A DNA stretch of 64,000 nt from Variovorax sp. J22G73 (lineage in GTDB: Bacteria > Pseudomonadota > Gammaproteobacteria > Burkholderiales > Burkholderiaceae_C). How positions within the stretch are numbered: the stretch's first letter is position 1; each line of letters starts with the position of its first letter. The translations under genes were made by a program, and so were the position numbers. The stretch is from positions 124,001-188,000 of the forward strand of contig NZ_JASZYK010000007.1 in NCBI RefSeq assembly GCF_030317035.1, given 5' to 3'. A model generated the notes under the pieces. That model searched no databases, was not told where the DNA came from, and saw nothing but the letters and a program-made list of their open reading frames with translations. Of the stretch, positions 3,127 to 11,471 are shown one piece after another.

Positions 3127-5148
3127 ATGGCGCATGCACACCCGACCTCTTCATCAGCGATTTCTCTAGAGACATCCAGCGAGTCCAGCCTCGACCACAT
3201 CGAGGACGCGCTGGCCGTCCTCCAAGCACTGGGCCCCGACGGCATCGCCGGCTTGCGCCGCCCGATGGGTGTGCTGATGTACCGCCTGGGCAAGCTGCTG
3301 TGCGCGGACGCAGCGCCCACGCAGCCGATCGCCGTGCTGCTCGAGCAAGACCTGGAGCGCAGCCTGCTCCTCTACCCGGACCTGAAGTGGCAAGAGGCCG
3401 GCCTGCGCGGCGCGCTCGACGTGCTGGTGCGCGTGCTCGACAGCCTGGGCCGCTACGTGGCCGATGCACCTGATGAACCGGCCACGGGAGACGAAGCCAA
3501 CCCACCGGACACCTTTGGCCGCCCGCTGCCCTTCCTGCCGCTGTTTCACGCGCTGGCGACCCTGGCTCTGGCCTTTCCGGTGCGCGCCGACTCGCGCCGC
3601 TACGAGCCGCAGCCCGGCGAGGAATCGGTGCTGCATGCCGGCGGCGACGACAAGCCCAAGGTGCGCCAGGACGCGCACCGCAGCTTCGCCACGCTGCTGG
3701 ACGCCTGCGACTACCAGGCCGGCTGGTGGAACGCGCCGTTCAAGTCGGAGCTGGCCTTCGCGGCCAGCGGCATGCCCTACATCGGCAGCCCGTCGCCGCG
3801 GCCCGCGCGCAAGGGCGACTGTCACTGGCGCAAGCCCAAGGGCAGCCTGTCGCCGGACTTGGTGGTGCCGACGGTGCCGCCCGCCTCGCACCCCAGCCAT
3901 GCGTCCAGGGTGGCGCATGCGGTGGAGCTCAAGCTCACGGCCGATTCGCTGGGCTTGAACCAGAGCCAGAACCACATCGACCTGTTCGGACGCGACCGCT
4001 TCCACCTGCTGTACGCGCCGGAGTTGCAAGGGCAAGCGCCGTTGTCACCTTTGTCGCCTTTATCGCCCTTGGAACTCGACGCCTGGATCACCGCCCTGCG
4101 CACCGATGCCAACGCGACCGCCACGGTGGCGCCGCAGCACGCGGCCGGGCTGTTCCAGACGCCAGCCACCTGGCGGCTGGCCATGTCCGCCTCGGCCTTC
4201 TTCCATCTTCGCTCGAAGGCCGACGTCGGCCGGCTGGCCACGCTGCTGCCGCAGTTGCACGACGAGTTCCAGCAGCTCACCGGCCACGCGCTCACCCGCT
4301 ACATGGGCTTTCGCAGCGGCGCGGTCGCGCGCAAGGGCCACGCGCAGGAAGACATCGAAGCGCAGTACCTCAAGCACGCCGACGACATCGTCTCGCTGCA
4401 GGGCTTCGACGCGCCGACGAAGGAGAGCTCGTCGCGCTTCGAGTTCCAGGCCGTGGCGCAATTCCGGCGCGCGCGCATGCCGCGGGCCGCCGCGGGGCTG
4501 GACTGCCTGGCGCTTCACTTTCCGCTGGACTTCTGGGCCACGCACCACAACGAGGTGCGTGCGTGGTGGCTGGGCGCGCTGCAGCGGCTGCAGGCCGAGC
4601 AGGCCTACATGGGCCTGGGCATCGGCCGCCCGCCGGTGCTGGAGCGCTACCCGCTGCAGCACACGGCCGAGTTCGCGCTGGCGCGGCGCTTTCTCGGGCT
4701 CGATGTGGACAAGCCCTTCTTCATGCGCTCCAGCCGGCCCGACGGCATGAGCCTGGAATGCGGCATGCGCACGCCGGGTTTCGGCGTGCTGGTGTGCGGT
4801 GATTTCGCCGCGCGGCTGGGCGGCACGGAGGCACTGCAGCGCCGGCTGCAGAAGGTGCCCGGCATGCGACTGCAGCCCTGCATGGACGGCGGCGGCCTGT
4901 GGATCGAGGCGGGCGATGCACCGGCGCTCTACCCGGTGGAAGAAGGCGTGCCCCGCCACCTGCGCGCGCTGGCCGAGGCCTTGATACCCGTGCGGCTCGA
5001 CAGGCTGTGGATGACCAGCTATCCGCCGAACGCCGCGAGCGACGACATCTTCACGCCGGCGTCATCCGCGCTCTGGCTGCAGCGCTTCGACACGGCGAGC
5101 CAATGGCCGCGCGGGCTGGACGCCAGCCGCGCTACAGCACGTCCTTGA
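3127..5148 (+). CDS. Large protein with DUF3396-like (type VI immunity family) C-terminal half
   Basis: 673 aa, soluble, no signal peptide or membrane segment. Residues 1-110 are helical and unrecognised. From about residue 350 the pattern resembles DUF3396 proteins, which neutralise type VI effectors in several proteobacteria: AFFHLRSKADV, LDCLALHFPLDFW, a QAYMGLGIGRPPVLERYP block, GFGVLVCGDFAARLGG, MDGGGLWIEAGDAPALYPV and a final ALWLQRFD. No effector, VgrG or PAAR gene lies beside it, so an immunity role is only a family-based guess. The last 17 bp overlap convergent fliA. An imperfect repeat (LSPLSPLSPLEL) occurs near residue 303. Confidence 0.6.
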   Translation: MAHAHPTSSSAISLETSSESSLDHIEDALAVLQALGPDGIAGLRRPMGVLMYRLGKLLCADAAPTQPIAVLLEQDLERSLLLYPDLKWQEAGLRGALDVLVRVLDSLGRYVADAPDEPATGDEANPPDTFGRPLPFLPLFHALATLALAFPVRADSRRYEPQPGEESVLHAGGDDKPKVRQDAHRSFATLLDACDYQAGWWNAPFKSELAFAASGMPYIGSPSPRPARKGDCHWRKPKGSLSPDLVVPTVPPASHPSHASRVAHAVELKLTADSLGLNQSQNHIDLFGRDRFHLLYAPELQGQAPLSPLSPLSPLELDAWITALRTDANATATVAPQHAAGLFQTPATWRLAMSASAFFHLRSKADVGRLATLLPQLHDEFQQLTGHALTRYMGFRSGAVARKGHAQEDIEAQYLKHADDIVSLQGFDAPTKESSSRFEFQAVAQFRRARMPRAAAGLDCLALHFPLDFWATHHNEVRAWWLGALQRLQAEQAYMGLGIGRPPVLERYPLQHTAEFALARRFLGLDVDKPFFMRSSRPDGMSLECGMRTPGFGVLVCGDFAARLGGTEALQRRLQKVPGMRLQPCMDGGGLWIEAGDAPALYPVEEGVPRHLRALAEALIPVRLDRLWMTSYPPNAASDDIFTPASSALWLQRFDTASQWPRGLDASRATARP

Positions 5149-5866
5149 GCTTGGCGCGCAGCCGGCTGATCGCCTGGCTGTGCAGCTGGCACACGCGCGA
5201 CTGGCTCACCTCGAGCACGGCGCCAATTTCGCGCAGGTTCAGCTCTTCCTCGTAGTACAGGTTCAGCAGCAGCTGGTCGCGCTCTGGCAGCGCCGAGATC
5301 GCATCGACCAGCTGGTGCCTGAAGCCGCTTTCCAGCAGCTGCTCCAGCGGGTCGTTGCCGCTGCGCCGGTCCTTGCGCGACTCCTGCGAATGCGCGTCCA
5401 GGAACGGGTTGTCGGCATCGTCCTTGGTGAAGTCTTCCACGTACAGCAGCTGACAGCCCTGGATCTCCTGGAGCAGCGACTGGTACGCCTCCAGGTCCAT
5501 CTTCAGTTCCTTGGCGATCTCGCCTTCGGTGGGGGCGCGCCCGAGCCGGTGGCCCAGCGCGTGAATGGCCTTCTCGACGCCGCGCGACGACTGGCGCAGG
5601 CCGCGCGAGCCCCAGTCGTTGGCGCGCAGCTCGTCGAGCATGGCGCCGCGGATGCGCTGGCTGACGAAGGTCTCGAACTGCGCGCCGCGGTTGTCCTGGT
5701 AGCGGCTGGAGGCGTCCAGCAGGCCCAGCATGCCGGCCTGGATGAGGTCGTCCAGCTCCACGCTGGCGGGCAGCTTGGCCATCATCTGCAGCGCGATGCG
5801 GCGCACCAGCGGTTGATGCTGCGCCAGCAGGTGCGATTTCTCGATGGTTCCCTGTGCGGTGTACAC
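5132..5866 (-). CDS. fliA: Flagellar sigma factor FliA (sigma-28)
   Basis: 244 aa. Directs RNA polymerase to late flagellar promoters. Region 2 holds LIQAGMLGLLDASSRYQ (41-57) and FVSQRIRGAMLDELRANDW (67-85), hallmarks of the FliA/WhiG group. Region 4 ends with the helix-turn-helix NLREIGAVLEVSQSRVCQLH. The start is a GTG at 5866 with AAAAGGAC five bases upstream; the frame is open further upstream but without family similarity. Last gene of the flhB-flhA-flhF-fleN-fliA run. Matching promoters in this window lie upstream of fliC, flgK and receptor genes. The 3' end overlaps the convergent DUF3396-like gene by 17 bp. Confidence 0.97.
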   Translation of the reverse strand: MYTAQGTIEKSHLLAQHQPLVRRIALQMMAKLPASVELDDLIQAGMLGLLDASSRYQDNRGAQFETFVSQRIRGAMLDELRANDWGSRGLRQSSRGVEKAIHALGHRLGRAPTEGEIAKELKMDLEAYQSLLQEIQGCQLLYVEDFTKDDADNPFLDAHSQESRKDRRSGNDPLEQLLESGFRHQLVDAISALPERDQLLLNLYYEEELNLREIGAVLEVSQSRVCQLHSQAISRLRAKLKDVL

Positions 5867-5897
5867 GGCCGTCCTTTTCCGTTGGGGGGTCGGCGGC

Positions 5898-6692
5898 TCA
5901 GGCGGCCTGGAGCGGCATGGCCGCGCGCCAGGGCCAGCGGCCCATGTCGTCGGCCAGCCGGCGGAAGTCCACGGCCGCCGCGCTCGCGGGAAAGGCCTCG
6001 GCAATGGTCTGCTTCAGCCGCCAGGCGTCGGGGATGCGCGCGTCGAAGCGCACCATGCCGGCCGGCTGCAGCGACAGCGCCAGATAGCGGCTGCCGGCAT
6101 TGGCCAGGTTGTTCATGATCTGCTGCGCGGCCTCGGTGTCGACCACGCCGTTGATCAGGAAGCGCAGCTGCTTCAGCCCGTGCGCGTAGTGCAGGTTCTT
6201 GATGCCCGCGTAGGCCGAGGTGATCGACGCCGGGTGCGGCTTGAGCACCAGCAGCAGGTCGTCCGCGGCGCGCGCCAGCGGCGACAGCCGCCCCTCGCTG
6301 TCGAAGGCCGCGTCCACGATGACCACGCCGTCGGGCCACAGCGCGCGCGGGTCGGTGTCTTCGGGCGCCACGCCGGGCGGCGCGGGCAGCACGTGCACGC
6401 CGCAGTCGGCCCGCACCTCGGCGCCGTCCAGCGTGAGGCGGTGGCTGGCCACGTCGGCCAGGCTGCCCAGCGGGTCGATGGCCCAGACCTCGCAGGCCGA
6501 GCCTTCCTTCGGGCAGTGTTCGTCCAGCAGCAGCACATGCTTGCCCTGCTGCACCAGGGCCACGCCCAGGTTCATGGCGGCGGTGGTGCCGCCGGCGCCC
6601 TGCCCCATGCCCGCCACGGCGACCACGCGCGTGGGCTTCGGCGCCAGCAGGCGCCGCAGTCCGTCGGCCTGGTCGGCAACCAGCTTGCTCAT
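5898..6692 (-). CDS. fleN: FleN/FlhG-like MinD-family ATPase homologue with degenerate P-loop
   Basis: 264 aa, starting with an ATG preceded by AGGAGG. FleN/FlhG is a membrane-cycling ATPase that limits flagellar number, partly by stimulating FlhF GTPase. The layout fits: N-terminal LVADQADGLRRLLAP (the short activator-like segment), the P-loop strand VVAVAG, AAMNLGVALVQQGKHVLLLDEH, VVIVDAAFD, and a C-terminal part with DLLLVLKPHPASITSAYAGIK. The Walker A segment reads GMGQGAGGTT, so both lysines of the usual KGGxGKT are absent and nucleotide hydrolysis is doubtful. It starts 13 bp after flhF and precedes fliA, the usual polar-flagellum context. Confidence 0.88.
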   Translation of the reverse strand: MSKLVADQADGLRRLLAPKPTRVVAVAGMGQGAGGTTAAMNLGVALVQQGKHVLLLDEHCPKEGSACEVWAIDPLGSLADVASHRLTLDGAEVRADCGVHVLPAPPGVAPEDTDPRALWPDGVVIVDAAFDSEGRLSPLARAADDLLLVLKPHPASITSAYAGIKNLHYAHGLKQLRFLINGVVDTEAAQQIMNNLANAGSRYLALSLQPAGMVRFDARIPDAWRLKQTIAEAFPASAAAVDFRRLADDMGRWPWRAAMPLQAA

Positions 6693-6705: not shown

Positions 6706-9375
6706 TCAGCCCAGTTGCTCCATGGCGCGCGGCGCCTGCGTGGGCGCGGTCGATTCGGTGCCCAGCGCCTCCAGCAGCAAGAAGAGCTTGCCCACGCCCG
6801 CATACAGCGCGCTGCCGCTCATGAGCCGGCCGTTGCGCACCGGGCGCGCCGTGAGCTGGCCCAGCAGCGCGCGCGTGCGGTCGGCCCACTCGCCCTCGGC
6901 GTGCAGCAGGCGCCACACGGTGGTGGTGACCTGGCCGGCGATCAGCAGGCGCTTCATGTTGTCGGGGTCGCCCAGCTCGCCGATGCCGCCGGCCAGCTGC
7001 ACGCCGTCGCGCAGCAGGCGGAAGCAGGGCTCGGCCTCGTTGGCCCAGCCTTGCCATTGCGTCAGCTGGCGCGCCGGCACGTCGGTGCCCACGTTCGACA
7101 GCGCGAACGACAGCGACAGCACATTGCCGGTGCGCGCATCGAGCGTGCGCACGGCCACGCAGCGCAGCGCGGGCATGGCCTCGCGTGCCACGCCGGCCGC
7201 CGCGGCGGCGGTGTTGAAGCGCAGCACCACGTCCACGTGCGCCTCGCATTGCAGCGCGGCCTTGCCGCGAAAACGCACGGGCCGGGTCTCGCCGAACTCG
7301 AAGTCCATGCGCGCCAGCGTGTCGGGCGCGCCGGTGCGCGTATCGATCACGGCGGTGGAGCCCGGCGCGCGCGCCAGCCAGCGCTGGCCCGTGGCCTGCC
7401 ACTGCACCATCGCCTCGATGCCGGGCAGGCGCGTGAGCACATGCACCACCGGCTTGGCGCCGAAGTCCTGCTGGCGCAGCCAGGGCGCCTGGCGCGCGCC
7501 GGGCTTGCGCGCCGGGTCTTTCATGCCGCGGGTGGCGGCGGTGGCCAGCCACTGGTTGGGCGCCGCGAGCGGCAGGCCCGTGCGGTCCGACAGCAGCAGG
7601 CTGCCATGGCATTCGTAGGCGTCGCCGCCCTCGTTGGAGCGCAGGCCGATCTGGCCCGACAGCGCGAGCACATGCTGCTCGCAGCCCGCGGCCACTTCGC
7701 TGCGCGCATGCACGGCCAGGTCTTGCAGCAGGGTCTTCTGTCCGACCTGCTCGTCACCGGCCTGGCGCCACAGGCCCCGCGCGCGCTCGAAGCCGATCTG
7801 CGCGCCGGCCAGCGCGCTGGCGGCGGTGGCCAGCTCCTGCGCGTCGTGCGCCATGGCGCGGATGAGGTTCTGGTACTTCAGGCGCAGCCGGTCGGTCTCG
7901 CCCTGGGCCTGCACCACCTGCGCGGAGGCCGCGGCGCTGTTGGCGCCGGCGCCCTCTTCCTGCAGGTCGCTCTCGGCCGGCACGAACAGCGGGTTGTGCT
8001 GGCGCGGCTGGAACACGCTGTCCACCAGCTGCGCGCGGTCGGCCTGCATCAGGTTCTCGGGCACCTTCTGGCCGCTCGAGATGTAGTGCACCGGCAGGCG
8101 GTGGCGGATCACGGTGTCGATCAGCGCGCCCGGGTGCGTGGCTTCGTCGACCTTGGTGAAGATGCAGCCGGTCAGCTCGTTGCCGTGGCGGTAGGCGTGC
8201 ACCACCTCGTTGAGCGTGTCGCCGTGGCTGGTGGCGTTCAGCAGCAGCAGGCGCTTCACCGGGCGCGGGCTCTGGCCCAGCATGGCGATCTGCTCGGGCA
8301 CGGCGCGGTCGCGCTGGCTCATGCCCACGGTGTCGATGAGCACCATGTGCTTGTCGCGCAGGTCCTGCAGCACCAGGTGCAGGTCGGCCGCGTCCTTCAC
8401 GGCGTACACCGGCACGTTCAGGATCTGGCCGTAGATGCGCAGTTGCTCGTACGCGCCGATCCGGTAGCTGTCGGTGGTGACCAGCGCGAGCTTGTCGGCG
8501 CCGAAGCGCATCACGCAGCGCGCGGCCAGCTTGGCGGTGGTGGTGGTCTTGCCGACGCCGGTGGGGCCCATCAGCGCGTACACGCCGCCCTGCGCGAACA
8601 GCGCGTCTTCGTCTTCGTGCACGGGCACGGCGCGGATCAGCTCCGAGCGCACGTAGGCCATGCCTTCGGCGTAGGTCTGGCCGGTGGGCAGCTTCTCGAG
8701 CATGGCCTTGGACAGCTTGGCGCTGAAGCCGGCGCCGAGCAGCGTGCGCAGCAGGCGCCCGCGCACGGGGTCGCGGCGCTGCTTGTCGTTCCACACCACG
8801 CTGGCGAGCTGCTCTTCGATCATGCCGCGCATGGAGTGCAGCTCGTTGAGCACGGTGTCGGATGCGGGAGCGAGCGTGGCTGCGGGCGGCGTGTGGGCCA
8901 CGGGTGCGGGCATGGCGGCGGGTGCGGCCTGCACGACCGGTGCGGCGGCGGCGACCGGGGCCATGTGCGCCACATGCGTCACCTGCGCCACAGGGGTTGC
9001 TGGTGCCACGGCAACAGGCGCGACCGCGACGGGCGCGACGGCAATGGGCGTCAACGGCACGGCGCGCATCGCGGCCGGTGCCACCGAGGCCACCGGCGTC
9101 ATCGACGCCACGGGCACGACCGGCGCGGCCACGGACGCCATATAGGCCACCGGCGCCGCCGGCTGGGCCGGCTTCACAGGCGCGGCATCACCCACCACCT
9201 GCTGCATGTCGCCTTCCACCATGGCGACGATCTCGACGCCTTCCGGCGCCACGCGGTGGCTGAGCACGATGGCATCGGCGCCGAGCGCCTCGCGCACCAG
9301 TCTCAGGGCTTCGCGGCTGGTGGCCGCGACGAATTTGCGTGCGGTGGTGCGCACGTCGGTCTGCTGGGAATTCAA
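6706..9375 (-). CDS. flhF: Flagellar SRP-type GTPase FlhF with long transposase-like C-terminal extension
   Basis: 889 aa, about twice the usual FlhF length. Residues 10-55 are the FlhF N-terminal domain (FVAATSREALRLVREALGAD). Residues 65-165 are an Ala/Val/Thr/Pro-rich linker. The helical N domain follows, then the G domain with P-loop GPTGVGKTTTTAKLAARC near 268, TTDSYRIGAYEQL and VLIDTVGM, ending near residue 450. The remaining 430 residues are not FlhF; their pattern follows Tn5/IS4 transposases with catalytic aspartates missing (see findings). The start is a TTG overlapping the flhA stop (TTGA), with GGAGG six bases upstream. FlhF recruits early basal-body parts to the pole. Confidence 0.93.
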   Translation of the reverse strand: MNSQQTDVRTTARKFVAATSREALRLVREALGADAIVLSHRVAPEGVEIVAMVEGDMQQVVGDAAPVKPAQPAAPVAYMASVAAPVVPVASMTPVASVAPAAMRAVPLTPIAVAPVAVAPVAVAPATPVAQVTHVAHMAPVAAAAPVVQAAPAAMPAPVAHTPPAATLAPASDTVLNELHSMRGMIEEQLASVVWNDKQRRDPVRGRLLRTLLGAGFSAKLSKAMLEKLPTGQTYAEGMAYVRSELIRAVPVHEDEDALFAQGGVYALMGPTGVGKTTTTAKLAARCVMRFGADKLALVTTDSYRIGAYEQLRIYGQILNVPVYAVKDAADLHLVLQDLRDKHMVLIDTVGMSQRDRAVPEQIAMLGQSPRPVKRLLLLNATSHGDTLNEVVHAYRHGNELTGCIFTKVDEATHPGALIDTVIRHRLPVHYISSGQKVPENLMQADRAQLVDSVFQPRQHNPLFVPAESDLQEEGAGANSAAASAQVVQAQGETDRLRLKYQNLIRAMAHDAQELATAASALAGAQIGFERARGLWRQAGDEQVGQKTLLQDLAVHARSEVAAGCEQHVLALSGQIGLRSNEGGDAYECHGSLLLSDRTGLPLAAPNQWLATAATRGMKDPARKPGARQAPWLRQQDFGAKPVVHVLTRLPGIEAMVQWQATGQRWLARAPGSTAVIDTRTGAPDTLARMDFEFGETRPVRFRGKAALQCEAHVDVVLRFNTAAAAAGVAREAMPALRCVAVRTLDARTGNVLSLSFALSNVGTDVPARQLTQWQGWANEAEPCFRLLRDGVQLAGGIGELGDPDNMKRLLIAGQVTTTVWRLLHAEGEWADRTRALLGQLTARPVRNGRLMSGSALYAGVGKLFLLLEALGTESTAPTQAPRAMEQLG

Positions 9376-11471
9376 ACGCGTCCTCCAATGGCGGCAGTGA
9401 TCTTGATGGTGCGGGAGTCAGGAATCTCCGCATGCGAAAGCACCTTGAGCTGCGGCAGGCTGCGCCGCAGGAAACGGGACAGCAGCACGCGCAACGCGTG
9501 CTGCACGACCAGCACGGGCGCCAGGCCCAGCTGCTCCTGTCGAACGATGGCGGCCTGCGCCTGGCGCAGCAGGTTGTCGGCAATGCCGGGCTCGATGCCG
9601 CTGCTGCTGGTGAGCGCCTGCTGCAGCACGCTGTCGAGCGAGCCGTCCAGGCCGATGACCTGCATCTCGGTCTCGCCCGGGAACAGCTGTTGCGTGATGG
9701 CGCGGCCCAGGGCCAGGCGGGTGAGCGTGGTGAGCTCGGTCGGGTCCTTGATGGTCGGCGCGTGCTCGGCCATCACGTCCAGGATGGTGCGCATGTCGCG
9801 GATCGGCACCTCTTCGTCGAGCAGGTTCTGCAGCACCTTGTGCAGCGTGCTGAGCGACAGCACCTTGGGCACCAGGTCTTCGGTGAGCTTGGGCGCGGTC
9901 TTGGCGATCTGGTCGAGCAGCTGCTGCACTTCCTGGCGGCCGAGCAGCTCGGCGGCGTGCGTCTGTATGAGGTGGTTCAGGTGCGTGGCCATCACCGTGC
10001 AGGCATCGACCACCGTGTAGCCGTACACCTGCGCCTGCTGGCGCAGGCTGGCGTCGATCCACACCGCCGCCAGGCCGAAGGCCGGGTCGCGCGTGGGCGT
10101 GCCGGGCAGCGAGCCCGTCACCTGGCCGGGGTTGATGGCCATCCACTGGTTCGGGTAGGCCTCGCCGCGGCCGATTTCCACGTCCTTCAGGCTGATGATG
10201 TACGTGTTGGGGTTGATCTCGAGGTTGTCTCGGATGTGCACCACCGGCACCAGGAAGCCCACCTCCTGCGCGATCTTCTTGCGGATGCTCTTGATGCGCC
10301 CCAGCAGCTCGCCCTGCTGCGACTGGTCCACCAGCGGAATGAGGCGGTAGCCCACCTGCATGCCCAGCGGGTCGACCATGGCCACGTCGTCCCAGGTGGC
10401 CTCGGCCATCTCGGCGGCGGGCGACACGCTGGCGGCCTGCGCGGCGGCGGCGGCCTGCTGCGCGGCTTCCTTCGGCTTGCGCAGGATCAGGCGGCGGCCC
10501 AGCCACACCAGGCCGCCCGCGATCAGCAGGAAGGCCAGGTTCGGCATGCCCGGGATCATGCCCAGCAGCCCCACGATGCCGGCCGTGAGGAACAGCACCT
10601 GCGGGTTGGAAAAGAGCTGGCCCGTGAGCTGGCTGCCGACGTCCTCGTCGGTGGTCACGCGCGAGACGATCACGCCGGCCGCGGTGGAGATCACCAGCGC
10701 CGGAATCTGCGCCACCAGGCCGTCGCCGATGGCCAGCAGCGTGTAGGTCTTGCCGGCCGTGGAGAAGTCGAGCCCGTGCTGCAGCATGCCCACCACCAGC
10801 CCGCCGATGATGTTGATGACCATGATCAGCAGGCCCGCGATGGCGTCGCCGCGCACGAACTTGCTGGCACCGTCCATGGAGCCGTAGAAGTCGGCTTCCT
10901 GCGCCACTTCCTGGCGGCGCTTGCGGGCCACTTCCTCGCCGATGAGGCCGGCGTTCAGGTCGGCGTCGATGGCCATCTGCTTGCCGGGCATGGCGTCGAG
11001 CATGAAGCGCGCGCCCACCTCGGCGATGCGGCCCGCGCCCTTGGTGATCACCATGAAGTTGATGAGCACCAGGATGATGAACACCATCACGCCCACGGCG
11101 AAGTTGCCGCCCACCAGGAAGTGGCCGAAGGCCTCGATCACCTTGCCCGCGGCGTCCGGGCCGGTGTGGCCGTGCATGAGCACCACGCGGGTGGAGGCCA
11201 CGTTCAGCGACAGGCGCAGCAGCGTGGAGAACAGCAGCACCGCCGGGAAGGCCGCGAAGTCGAGCGCCTTCATGGTGTACATGCTCACCAGCAGCACCAT
11301 CACGGAGACCGCGATGTTGAAGGTGAACAGCAGGTCGAGCAGGAAGGGCGGCAGCGGCAGCACCATCATGCTCAGGATGAGGATGATGAGCACCGGCCCT
11401 GCCAGCCCCTTGAACTGCGTGCCACCGAACAGGTTCGGCGGCAGGCGCAGGAAATTGGTCATCGCGTTCAT
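9372..11471 (-). CDS. flhA: Flagellar export gate protein FlhA
   Basis: 699 aa, the normal size. Nonameric inner-membrane export gate that uses the proton-motive force and docks substrate-chaperone complexes. The N-terminal half has about eight membrane segments, beginning FKGLAGPVLIILILSMMVLP, and the FHIPEP-family loop MPGKQMAIDADLNAGLIGE near residues 150-170. The C-terminal half is the cytoplasmic docking domain (GYRLIPLVD, VHIRDNLEINPNTYIISLKD). The ATG overlaps the flhB stop as ATGA, and its own TGA overlaps the TTG of flhF, so translation is probably coupled through flhB-flhA-flhF. Confidence 0.97.
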   Translation of the reverse strand: MNAMTNFLRLPPNLFGGTQFKGLAGPVLIILILSMMVLPLPPFLLDLLFTFNIAVSVMVLLVSMYTMKALDFAAFPAVLLFSTLLRLSLNVASTRVVLMHGHTGPDAAGKVIEAFGHFLVGGNFAVGVMVFIILVLINFMVITKGAGRIAEVGARFMLDAMPGKQMAIDADLNAGLIGEEVARKRRQEVAQEADFYGSMDGASKFVRGDAIAGLLIMVINIIGGLVVGMLQHGLDFSTAGKTYTLLAIGDGLVAQIPALVISTAAGVIVSRVTTDEDVGSQLTGQLFSNPQVLFLTAGIVGLLGMIPGMPNLAFLLIAGGLVWLGRRLILRKPKEAAQQAAAAAQAASVSPAAEMAEATWDDVAMVDPLGMQVGYRLIPLVDQSQQGELLGRIKSIRKKIAQEVGFLVPVVHIRDNLEINPNTYIISLKDVEIGRGEAYPNQWMAINPGQVTGSLPGTPTRDPAFGLAAVWIDASLRQQAQVYGYTVVDACTVMATHLNHLIQTHAAELLGRQEVQQLLDQIAKTAPKLTEDLVPKVLSLSTLHKVLQNLLDEEVPIRDMRTILDVMAEHAPTIKDPTELTTLTRLALGRAITQQLFPGETEMQVIGLDGSLDSVLQQALTSSSGIEPGIADNLLRQAQAAIVRQEQLGLAPVLVVQHALRVLLSRFLRRSLPQLKVLSHAEIPDSRTIKITAAIGGRV

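Follow-up and report, generated by a model that had tools for sequence, protein, structure and literature searches.

A transposase-derived extension of the flagellar GTPase FlhF in Variovorax and other Burkholderiales

What are the 434 residues that follow the GTPase domain of the flagellar protein FlhF in Variovorax sp. J22G73, and why have they been kept? The gene lies in the window, that is, the whole stretch of 64,000 nucleotides analysed here (contig NZ_JASZYK010000007.1, positions 124,001 to 188,000), which is part of a genome of 8.39 Mb. FlhF, a well-studied spatial regulator that has a part in setting the place at which flagella form, has been described as a B domain, a linker and NG (December 2025 review, PMC12826062), and a domain study of the P. 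aeruginosa protein deals with domains B, N and G; a paper on polar confinement is also available (PMC11236974). An earlier note, made from this DNA alone, had seen in the residues after the GTPase a resemblance to a catalytically dead transposase of the Tn5/IS4 type. The motifs quoted there are present in the translated frame, the extension continues in frame after the GTPase, and the coordinates agree with the translation:

6706..9375, minus strand: flhF fused to a transposase-derived domain, a single open frame of 889 residues with a TTG start
8011..8583, minus strand: SRP54-type GTPase domain of FlhF, residues 265-455 (Pfam PF00448, E 6.4e-37; PDB FlhF 8r9r, E 1.8e-48)
6709..8010, minus strand: IS4/Tn5-type transposase-derived extension, residues 456-889, of which the first ~40 are a linker

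The protein matches the FlhF model TIGR03499 at 259 bits (cut-off 174), identifying an FlhF N domain and an SRP-type GTPase. Pfam and NCBIfam scans of the whole protein returned GTPase/FlhF families and weak P-loop matches, and nothing above the Pfam cut-offs other than the SRP54 GTPase at residues 265-455. The best match was NCBIfam NF011312 (PRK14723), a 768-position model of long FlhF covering window residues 12-872; its cut-off of 951 bits was reached neither by the window protein (895.2) nor by three relatives (P0118, 858.1; P0115, 899.5; P0181, 740.4). As only the GTPase is otherwise seen, the long FlhF is known to databases simply as FlhF, with no domain named after the GTPase. The architecture, which the earlier note would call undescribed if conserved in relatives, is thus not entirely new to databases, since NF011312 already models long FlhF; the C-terminal domain goes unrecognised in the name of that model.

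Descent of the extension

The extension is an IS4/Tn5-type transposase by descent, on the evidence of profiles, tblastn and BLASTP, bridging free transposases, the predicted fold and phylogeny, and we regard its identity as a dead transposase as nearly certain. A profile of 34 extensions (A3: the window and 33 loci chosen from the 80 described below, L032 being dropped because of a stop in the slice) was aligned to nine IS4 transposases, which were those of 31 IS4 loci that passed a filter on length and DTT/DRE motifs. The hhalign score was 70.2 (E 5.6e-13, 395 columns), against a mean of 2.5 and a maximum of 9.7 in 100 column shuffles, 2.3 for reversed columns and 3.0 for the FlhF GTPase; homology to the IS4 family is thus beyond chance. 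Profiles of single clades scored 70.4 (Oxalobacteraceae), 32.3 (Variovorax plus Ramlibacter) and, weakly, 20.7 (Polaromonas/Rhodoferax). Among individual proteins, P0115 matches the IS4 model NF033590 at 1.2e-6, and P0118 matches NF033590, NF033591 and NF033592 weakly (7e-4 to 1.7e-3). Since the extension has listed relatives in 180 other protein clusters, every one with the FlhF-type GTPase domain PF00448, and the IS4 profile score lies far above its controls, the extension is not a chance feature.

Direct searches led to the same family. When 72,556 plasmid records were searched by tblastn, the window extension found 17 at E<=1, comprising four from Cupriavidus, nine annotated transposases (several of them copies of a single gene; the best, from Methylotuvimicrobium, at E 1e-15) and four hypothetical proteins of Arsenophonus. 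A Herminiimonas extension retrieved the same 17 at E<=1e-5, with the best transposase at 4e-26, and a Cupriavidus extension retrieved eight, namely the four Cupriavidus records and four transposases at 9e-8. The four Cupriavidus matches sit in frames of 828-848 residues with the FlhF P-loop and GDTLNEV motif; Cupriavidus metallidurans CH34 has such a fused frame. Plasmids as well as genomes supplied the free transposases.

The bridge is formed by six free transposases (L132, L158, L160-L163), which match NF033590, DDE_Tnp_1 in Pfam and also NF011312 (in the part that covers the extension, best 3.2e-32). Since this last model takes in the extension, they reach 76-112 bits on it, far below its cut-off. 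Their profile (A5) aligned to A3 with probability 100 (E 1.5e-41, 356 columns) and, in a search of genomes, found an FlhF at 5.1e-34. In a tree of 36 extensions, the six bridging transposases and eight other IS4 transposases, the FlhF extensions form one clade (99/99) with the bridging group as sister (joint clade 100/100); long branches, seen in the genomes labelled f4 and in Cupriavidus, may be misplaced within FlhF. Judged by sequence, the closest kin found are this IS4-like subgroup without a family name and not Tn5 itself, so the resemblance to Tn5 claimed earlier holds for the IS4/Tn5 type and is refined as to the nearest relatives. A separate observation concerns locus L083 (1-2900), where a Tn5-like transposase with intact D-D-E ends a 793-residue frame whose first 300 residues resemble what we take to be DruA/DUF4338.

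The earlier note had proposed a Foldseek comparison with Tn5, and the predicted model of the extension is indeed Tn5-like over the RNase H-like core and the C-terminal helices. Several results weigh against the assignment. The template modelling (TM) score is no more than ~0.5, with a root-mean-square deviation of 6 to 9, and therefore parts of the extension are shifted relative to Tn5. Neither Pfam nor NCBIfam gave an IS4 match for the window extension alone, just five of the 34 A3 rows matched NF033590 (best 5.9e-8), and A3 had no match at E<=1 among PDB sequences. The Cupriavidus-only profile scored 7.8 against the nine transposases, inside the shuffle range, and the Cupriavidus-only fold model is poor (predicted local distance difference test, pLDDT, 51.9). 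Weak structural matches to Endonuclease V and Argonaute chains, together with the lack of a transposase hidden Markov model match for the window alone, would suit a resemblance that comes from chance motifs or from an RNase H-like fold common to both, without transposase descent. This explanation is extremely improbable and, for practical purposes, refuted.

Loss of catalytic residues

The following parts of the extension correspond to known parts of the transposase:

7696..7890, minus strand: residues 496-560, helices that match the end of the N-terminal domain of the transposase (alignment A4, profile alignment)
7654..7656, minus strand: Gly574, position of the first catalytic Asp (alignment)
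7432..7434, minus strand: Thr648, position of the second catalytic Asp (alignment)
7030..7032, minus strand: Glu782, catalytic Glu position kept (alignment)
7009..7056, minus strand: W774-R789, counterpart of the transposase helix W-Y-x-W-R-W-x-I-E...F-K-L-L-K, gapless in A4

The statement that both catalytic aspartates are replaced and the glutamate is kept is exact for the window, which reads G-T-E. Residues were counted in 265 of 268 extensions, 240 of them unique (P0166, P0170 and P0173 had no anchor and were dropped), aligned with 14 transposases. At the first Asp position none of the 240 has Asp and 206 have Gly; at the second, 21 keep Asp and the others have many different residues. At the Glu position, 186 have Glu and 47 have Asp. 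D-D-E is found in 12 of the 14 transposases, one of the others being without the first region and one having Asn. About 13 residues after the first Asp are also missing from the FlhF extension in A4. W774 is kept in all 240 unique extensions and W777 in 237. As the D-D-E triad is absent, the extension descends from the IS4 family but is not a working member of it, and it is apparently dead as a transposase.

IS4-family transposases carry the signature Y-x2-R-x3-E-x6-K. The window has Q-A-E-R instead, and this loss bears on the main rival to the scaffold role proposed below, namely that the tail acts as a regulator that binds DNA or as a DNA tether. It would still bind DNA without cutting it and would link FlhF either to flagellar promoters or to the nucleoid, where it would hold FlhF at certain sites or away from them. 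Near full-length homology to a DNA-binding protein speaks for it, as does the median isoelectric point of 9.0 for the whole extension (180 extensions), which is compatible with nucleic-acid binding; the signature is kept in eight of the 240 if K/R and D/E exchanges are allowed, and 206 have K or R at its K position. However, the signature Tyr is present in just eight, and at the Arg position 55 have R and 13 have K. The first 120 residues, compared without position-by-position alignment, are also net negative in the three FlhF extensions checked (-3, -4 and -10, vs +3 and +1 in two transposases). A tether therefore seems unlikely, and the "domesticated DNA- or RNA-handling fold" of the earlier note is half supported, in its domestication part.

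Distribution, origin and selection

A protein search with residues 455-889 found 129 proteins at E<=1e-3. Identities range from 43 to 99% among the 120 listed, and all 120 carry PF00448; the extensions of the window and of Variovorax sp. RCC_210 share 99% identity. A search from a Glaciimonas member found 102 proteins, both searches covering the 8000 candidates that had the most words in common with the query, among proteins of similar total length. With the A3 profile, at lengths up to ~1.75 times the query, nine proteins were found, six of them named FlhF or containing PF00448. Three matches stand apart. P0183, a predicted protein of 325 residues on a 21.7-kb contig, has the extension without the GTPase and may be a split flhF or a free copy; P0189 (326 residues) starts inside the GTPase and looks frame-shifted; and P0188, from a eukaryote collection, is 91% identical to the extension over 24% of it and is probably bacterial contamination.

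A contig scan, in which each species was represented by one genome, found 100 relatives, and the 80 best were retained; as one of its two patterns falls inside the GTPase, the scan favours FlhF. The 80 come from Variovorax, Ramlibacter, Polaromonas, Rhodoferax, Collimonas, Herminiimonas, Cupriavidus and a few metagenome-assembled genomes, and in all 80 the FlhF P-loop, the GDTLNEV motif and then the extension lie in one frame. An FlhA motif lies upstream in 77 of the 80, the remaining three having less than 1.5 kb of upstream sequence, and DQAxxLR follows the flhF stop in 77. The window has the same FlhF neighbourhood, with DQAxxLR in the adjoining flhG:

9372..11471, minus strand: flhA, directly upstream of flhF, an open reading frame that is presumably flhA
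5898..6692, minus strand: flhG, directly downstream of flhF, with a DQAxGLR motif
5132..6004, minus strand: fliA-like sigma factor (Pfam sigma70 r2/r3/r4), presumably fliA

FlhG of the window has lost its Walker A lysines (GMGQGAGGTT). A link between this and the fusion was considered and rejected, because Walker A is degenerate in several other FlhG of the order, including those beside short FlhF. Within FlhF itself, a low-complexity linker rich in Pro, Val and Ala occupies residues ~60-165 (8881-9198, minus strand) and is very variable in length among relatives.

The fusion is rare within the order and the family. Of 399 genomes from the order, 11 contain the extension at E<=1e-3, as eight FlhF frames, the free transposase L132 and two short pieces (G605, 3.0e-9; G464, 1.3e-4), while TIGR03499 is found at E<=1e-20 in 281 of the 399 (251 above the cut-off). 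In the window's family it occurs in three of 150 genomes, namely the window's own, another of the same genus and one weak match (1.2e-4); FlhF is present at E<=1e-30 in 110. Fused FlhF is nevertheless spread over three named families, Comamonadaceae, Oxalobacteraceae and Burkholderiaceae, its carriers being bacteria of soil and water. Two other long frames were inspected. L202, of the window's family, was rejected as a carrier, its 943-residue frame being a different fusion with an apparent chemotaxis receptor in front of the FlhF NG domain (the N-terminal part is presumably a methyl-accepting chemotaxis protein), and a motif search of L203 found no FlhF.

In a tree of the GTPase domain, the 19 long FlhF included group together as a single clade (100/98), separate from the 25 short ones, of which 15 are from the window's own family and two lie on long branches. 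A single origin of the fusion is shown as far as the two trees go; the event may be placed in an ancestor within the Burkholderiales, and its rarity fits one fusion followed by flagellar gene transfer or many losses.

Selection on the tail was measured as pairwise NG86 dN/dS (ratio of nonsynonymous to synonymous change). Medians for the extension are 0.438 in the Variovorax group (826 of 861 pairs usable; 42 rows, one Herminiimonas and two metagenome-assembled loci among them), 0.316 in Cupriavidus (136 of 136) and 0.298 in Polaromonas/Rhodoferax (84 of 91), compared with 0.144, 0.131 and 0.100 for the GTPase. The highest values for the extension are 0.87, 0.66 and 0.60, respectively. As its medians exceed those of the GTPase and no pair is above 0.87, the tail is under purifying selection and is held less tightly than the GTPase.

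This faster evolution in all three groups (0.30-0.44 vs 0.10-0.14), the long branches of Cupriavidus and the f4 genomes, and the variety of residues at the second Asp position would also fit a hitchhiker, an old, harmless and slowly decaying fusion in which selection acts only against unfolding or loss of the stop/flhG coupling. The upper limits of dN/dS oppose this, as do the retention of the tail across three named families and the residues W774, W666, C565, D597 and G600, invariant among 36 diverse extensions; we consider a hitchhiker less likely still than a DNA tether. Conservation is highest, among ten segments compared, in the following part:

6760..6885, minus strand: C-terminal helices, residues 831-872

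Mean pairwise identity there is 0.52 among the 36 diverse FlhF vs 0.28 in transposases. For the catalytic Glu helix it is 0.39 vs 0.45, a difference that 7 of 375 circular shifts made as extreme.

Proposed role and its meaning

The explanation that we prefer, with a probability of about 0.5 as a whole, is that the 3' end of flhF received an IS4-like transposase gene in a single in-frame fusion. The first catalytic Asp was lost, and transposition probably with it; the residue is absent from the sequences, and loss of activity would follow. Purifying selection would then have kept the tail, which gives FlhF a fourth domain behind B, N and G. The tail would most likely serve as a rigid protein module, whose C-terminal helices might allow FlhF to associate with itself or with a partner and thereby steady or locate the FlhF dimer, which depends on GTP and recruits the base of the flagellum. 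The C-terminal helices of Tn5 transposase serve dimerisation. FlhF works as an NG homodimer that depends on GTP (PMC12826062). A scaffold, that is, a dimer or docking module, is favoured because these helices are conserved in the tail and dimerise in Tn5, the first 120 residues are net negative in the three extensions checked, and FlhF itself acts as a dimer; we would give this role about an even chance. Besides the basic isoelectric point and the faster evolution described above, two points count against the preferred explanation: the conservation shift is modest, as the C-terminal excess was equalled by 25 of 375 circular shifts, and the literature yielded no experiments on the FlhF tail.

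More speculatively, FlhF of this clade might be a hybrid of two dimerising machines, a GTP-driven NG dimer and a synaptic-type dimer of a transposase with a dead site. The tail would make FlhF bivalent or chromosome-tied and would alter the read-out of flagellar position, for example, away from one pole. We find this possible, with the odds somewhat against it.

The tail can be set beside several known systems. With IS4-family transposases (NF033590; Tn5, PDB 1muh/4dm0) and the six free relatives it shares near full-length collinear sequence, the predicted fold, the Glu helix and the C-terminal helices; unlike them, it is fused to FlhF, lies between flhA and flhG, and has lost the first Asp in 240 and the second in 219 of the 240 extensions. 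The Tn5 transposase inhibitor (PDB 1b7e) differs: it is produced from an alternative start of the transposase gene and retains the catalytic residues. TldR proteins, transposon-derived nuclease-dead TnpB regulators linked to flagellin genes, are likewise dead mobile-element enzymes recruited into flagellar biology, but they belong to an unrelated family with an RNA-guided transcription mechanism, whereas the FlhF tail is a fusion. Short FlhF (TIGR03499, B-linker-NG) has the same complete NG GTPase and flhA-flhF-flhG order, but ends ~41-85 residues past the G-domain anchor (49 examined), where the long form adds 434. The word "transposase" is absent from the available parts of the review PMC12826062 and of the P. 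aeruginosa domain study, and the titles and abstract openings listed in searches of open-access papers, a coverage outside which most subscription papers and bioRxiv lie, hold nothing on an FlhF-transposase fusion.

The tail represents domestication of a bacterial transposase by fusion, outside DNA metabolism. Models such as NF011312, which blend FlhF with transposase sequence, call for caution. If the hybrid of two dimers were true, a transposase would have been recruited into the spatial control of an organelle.
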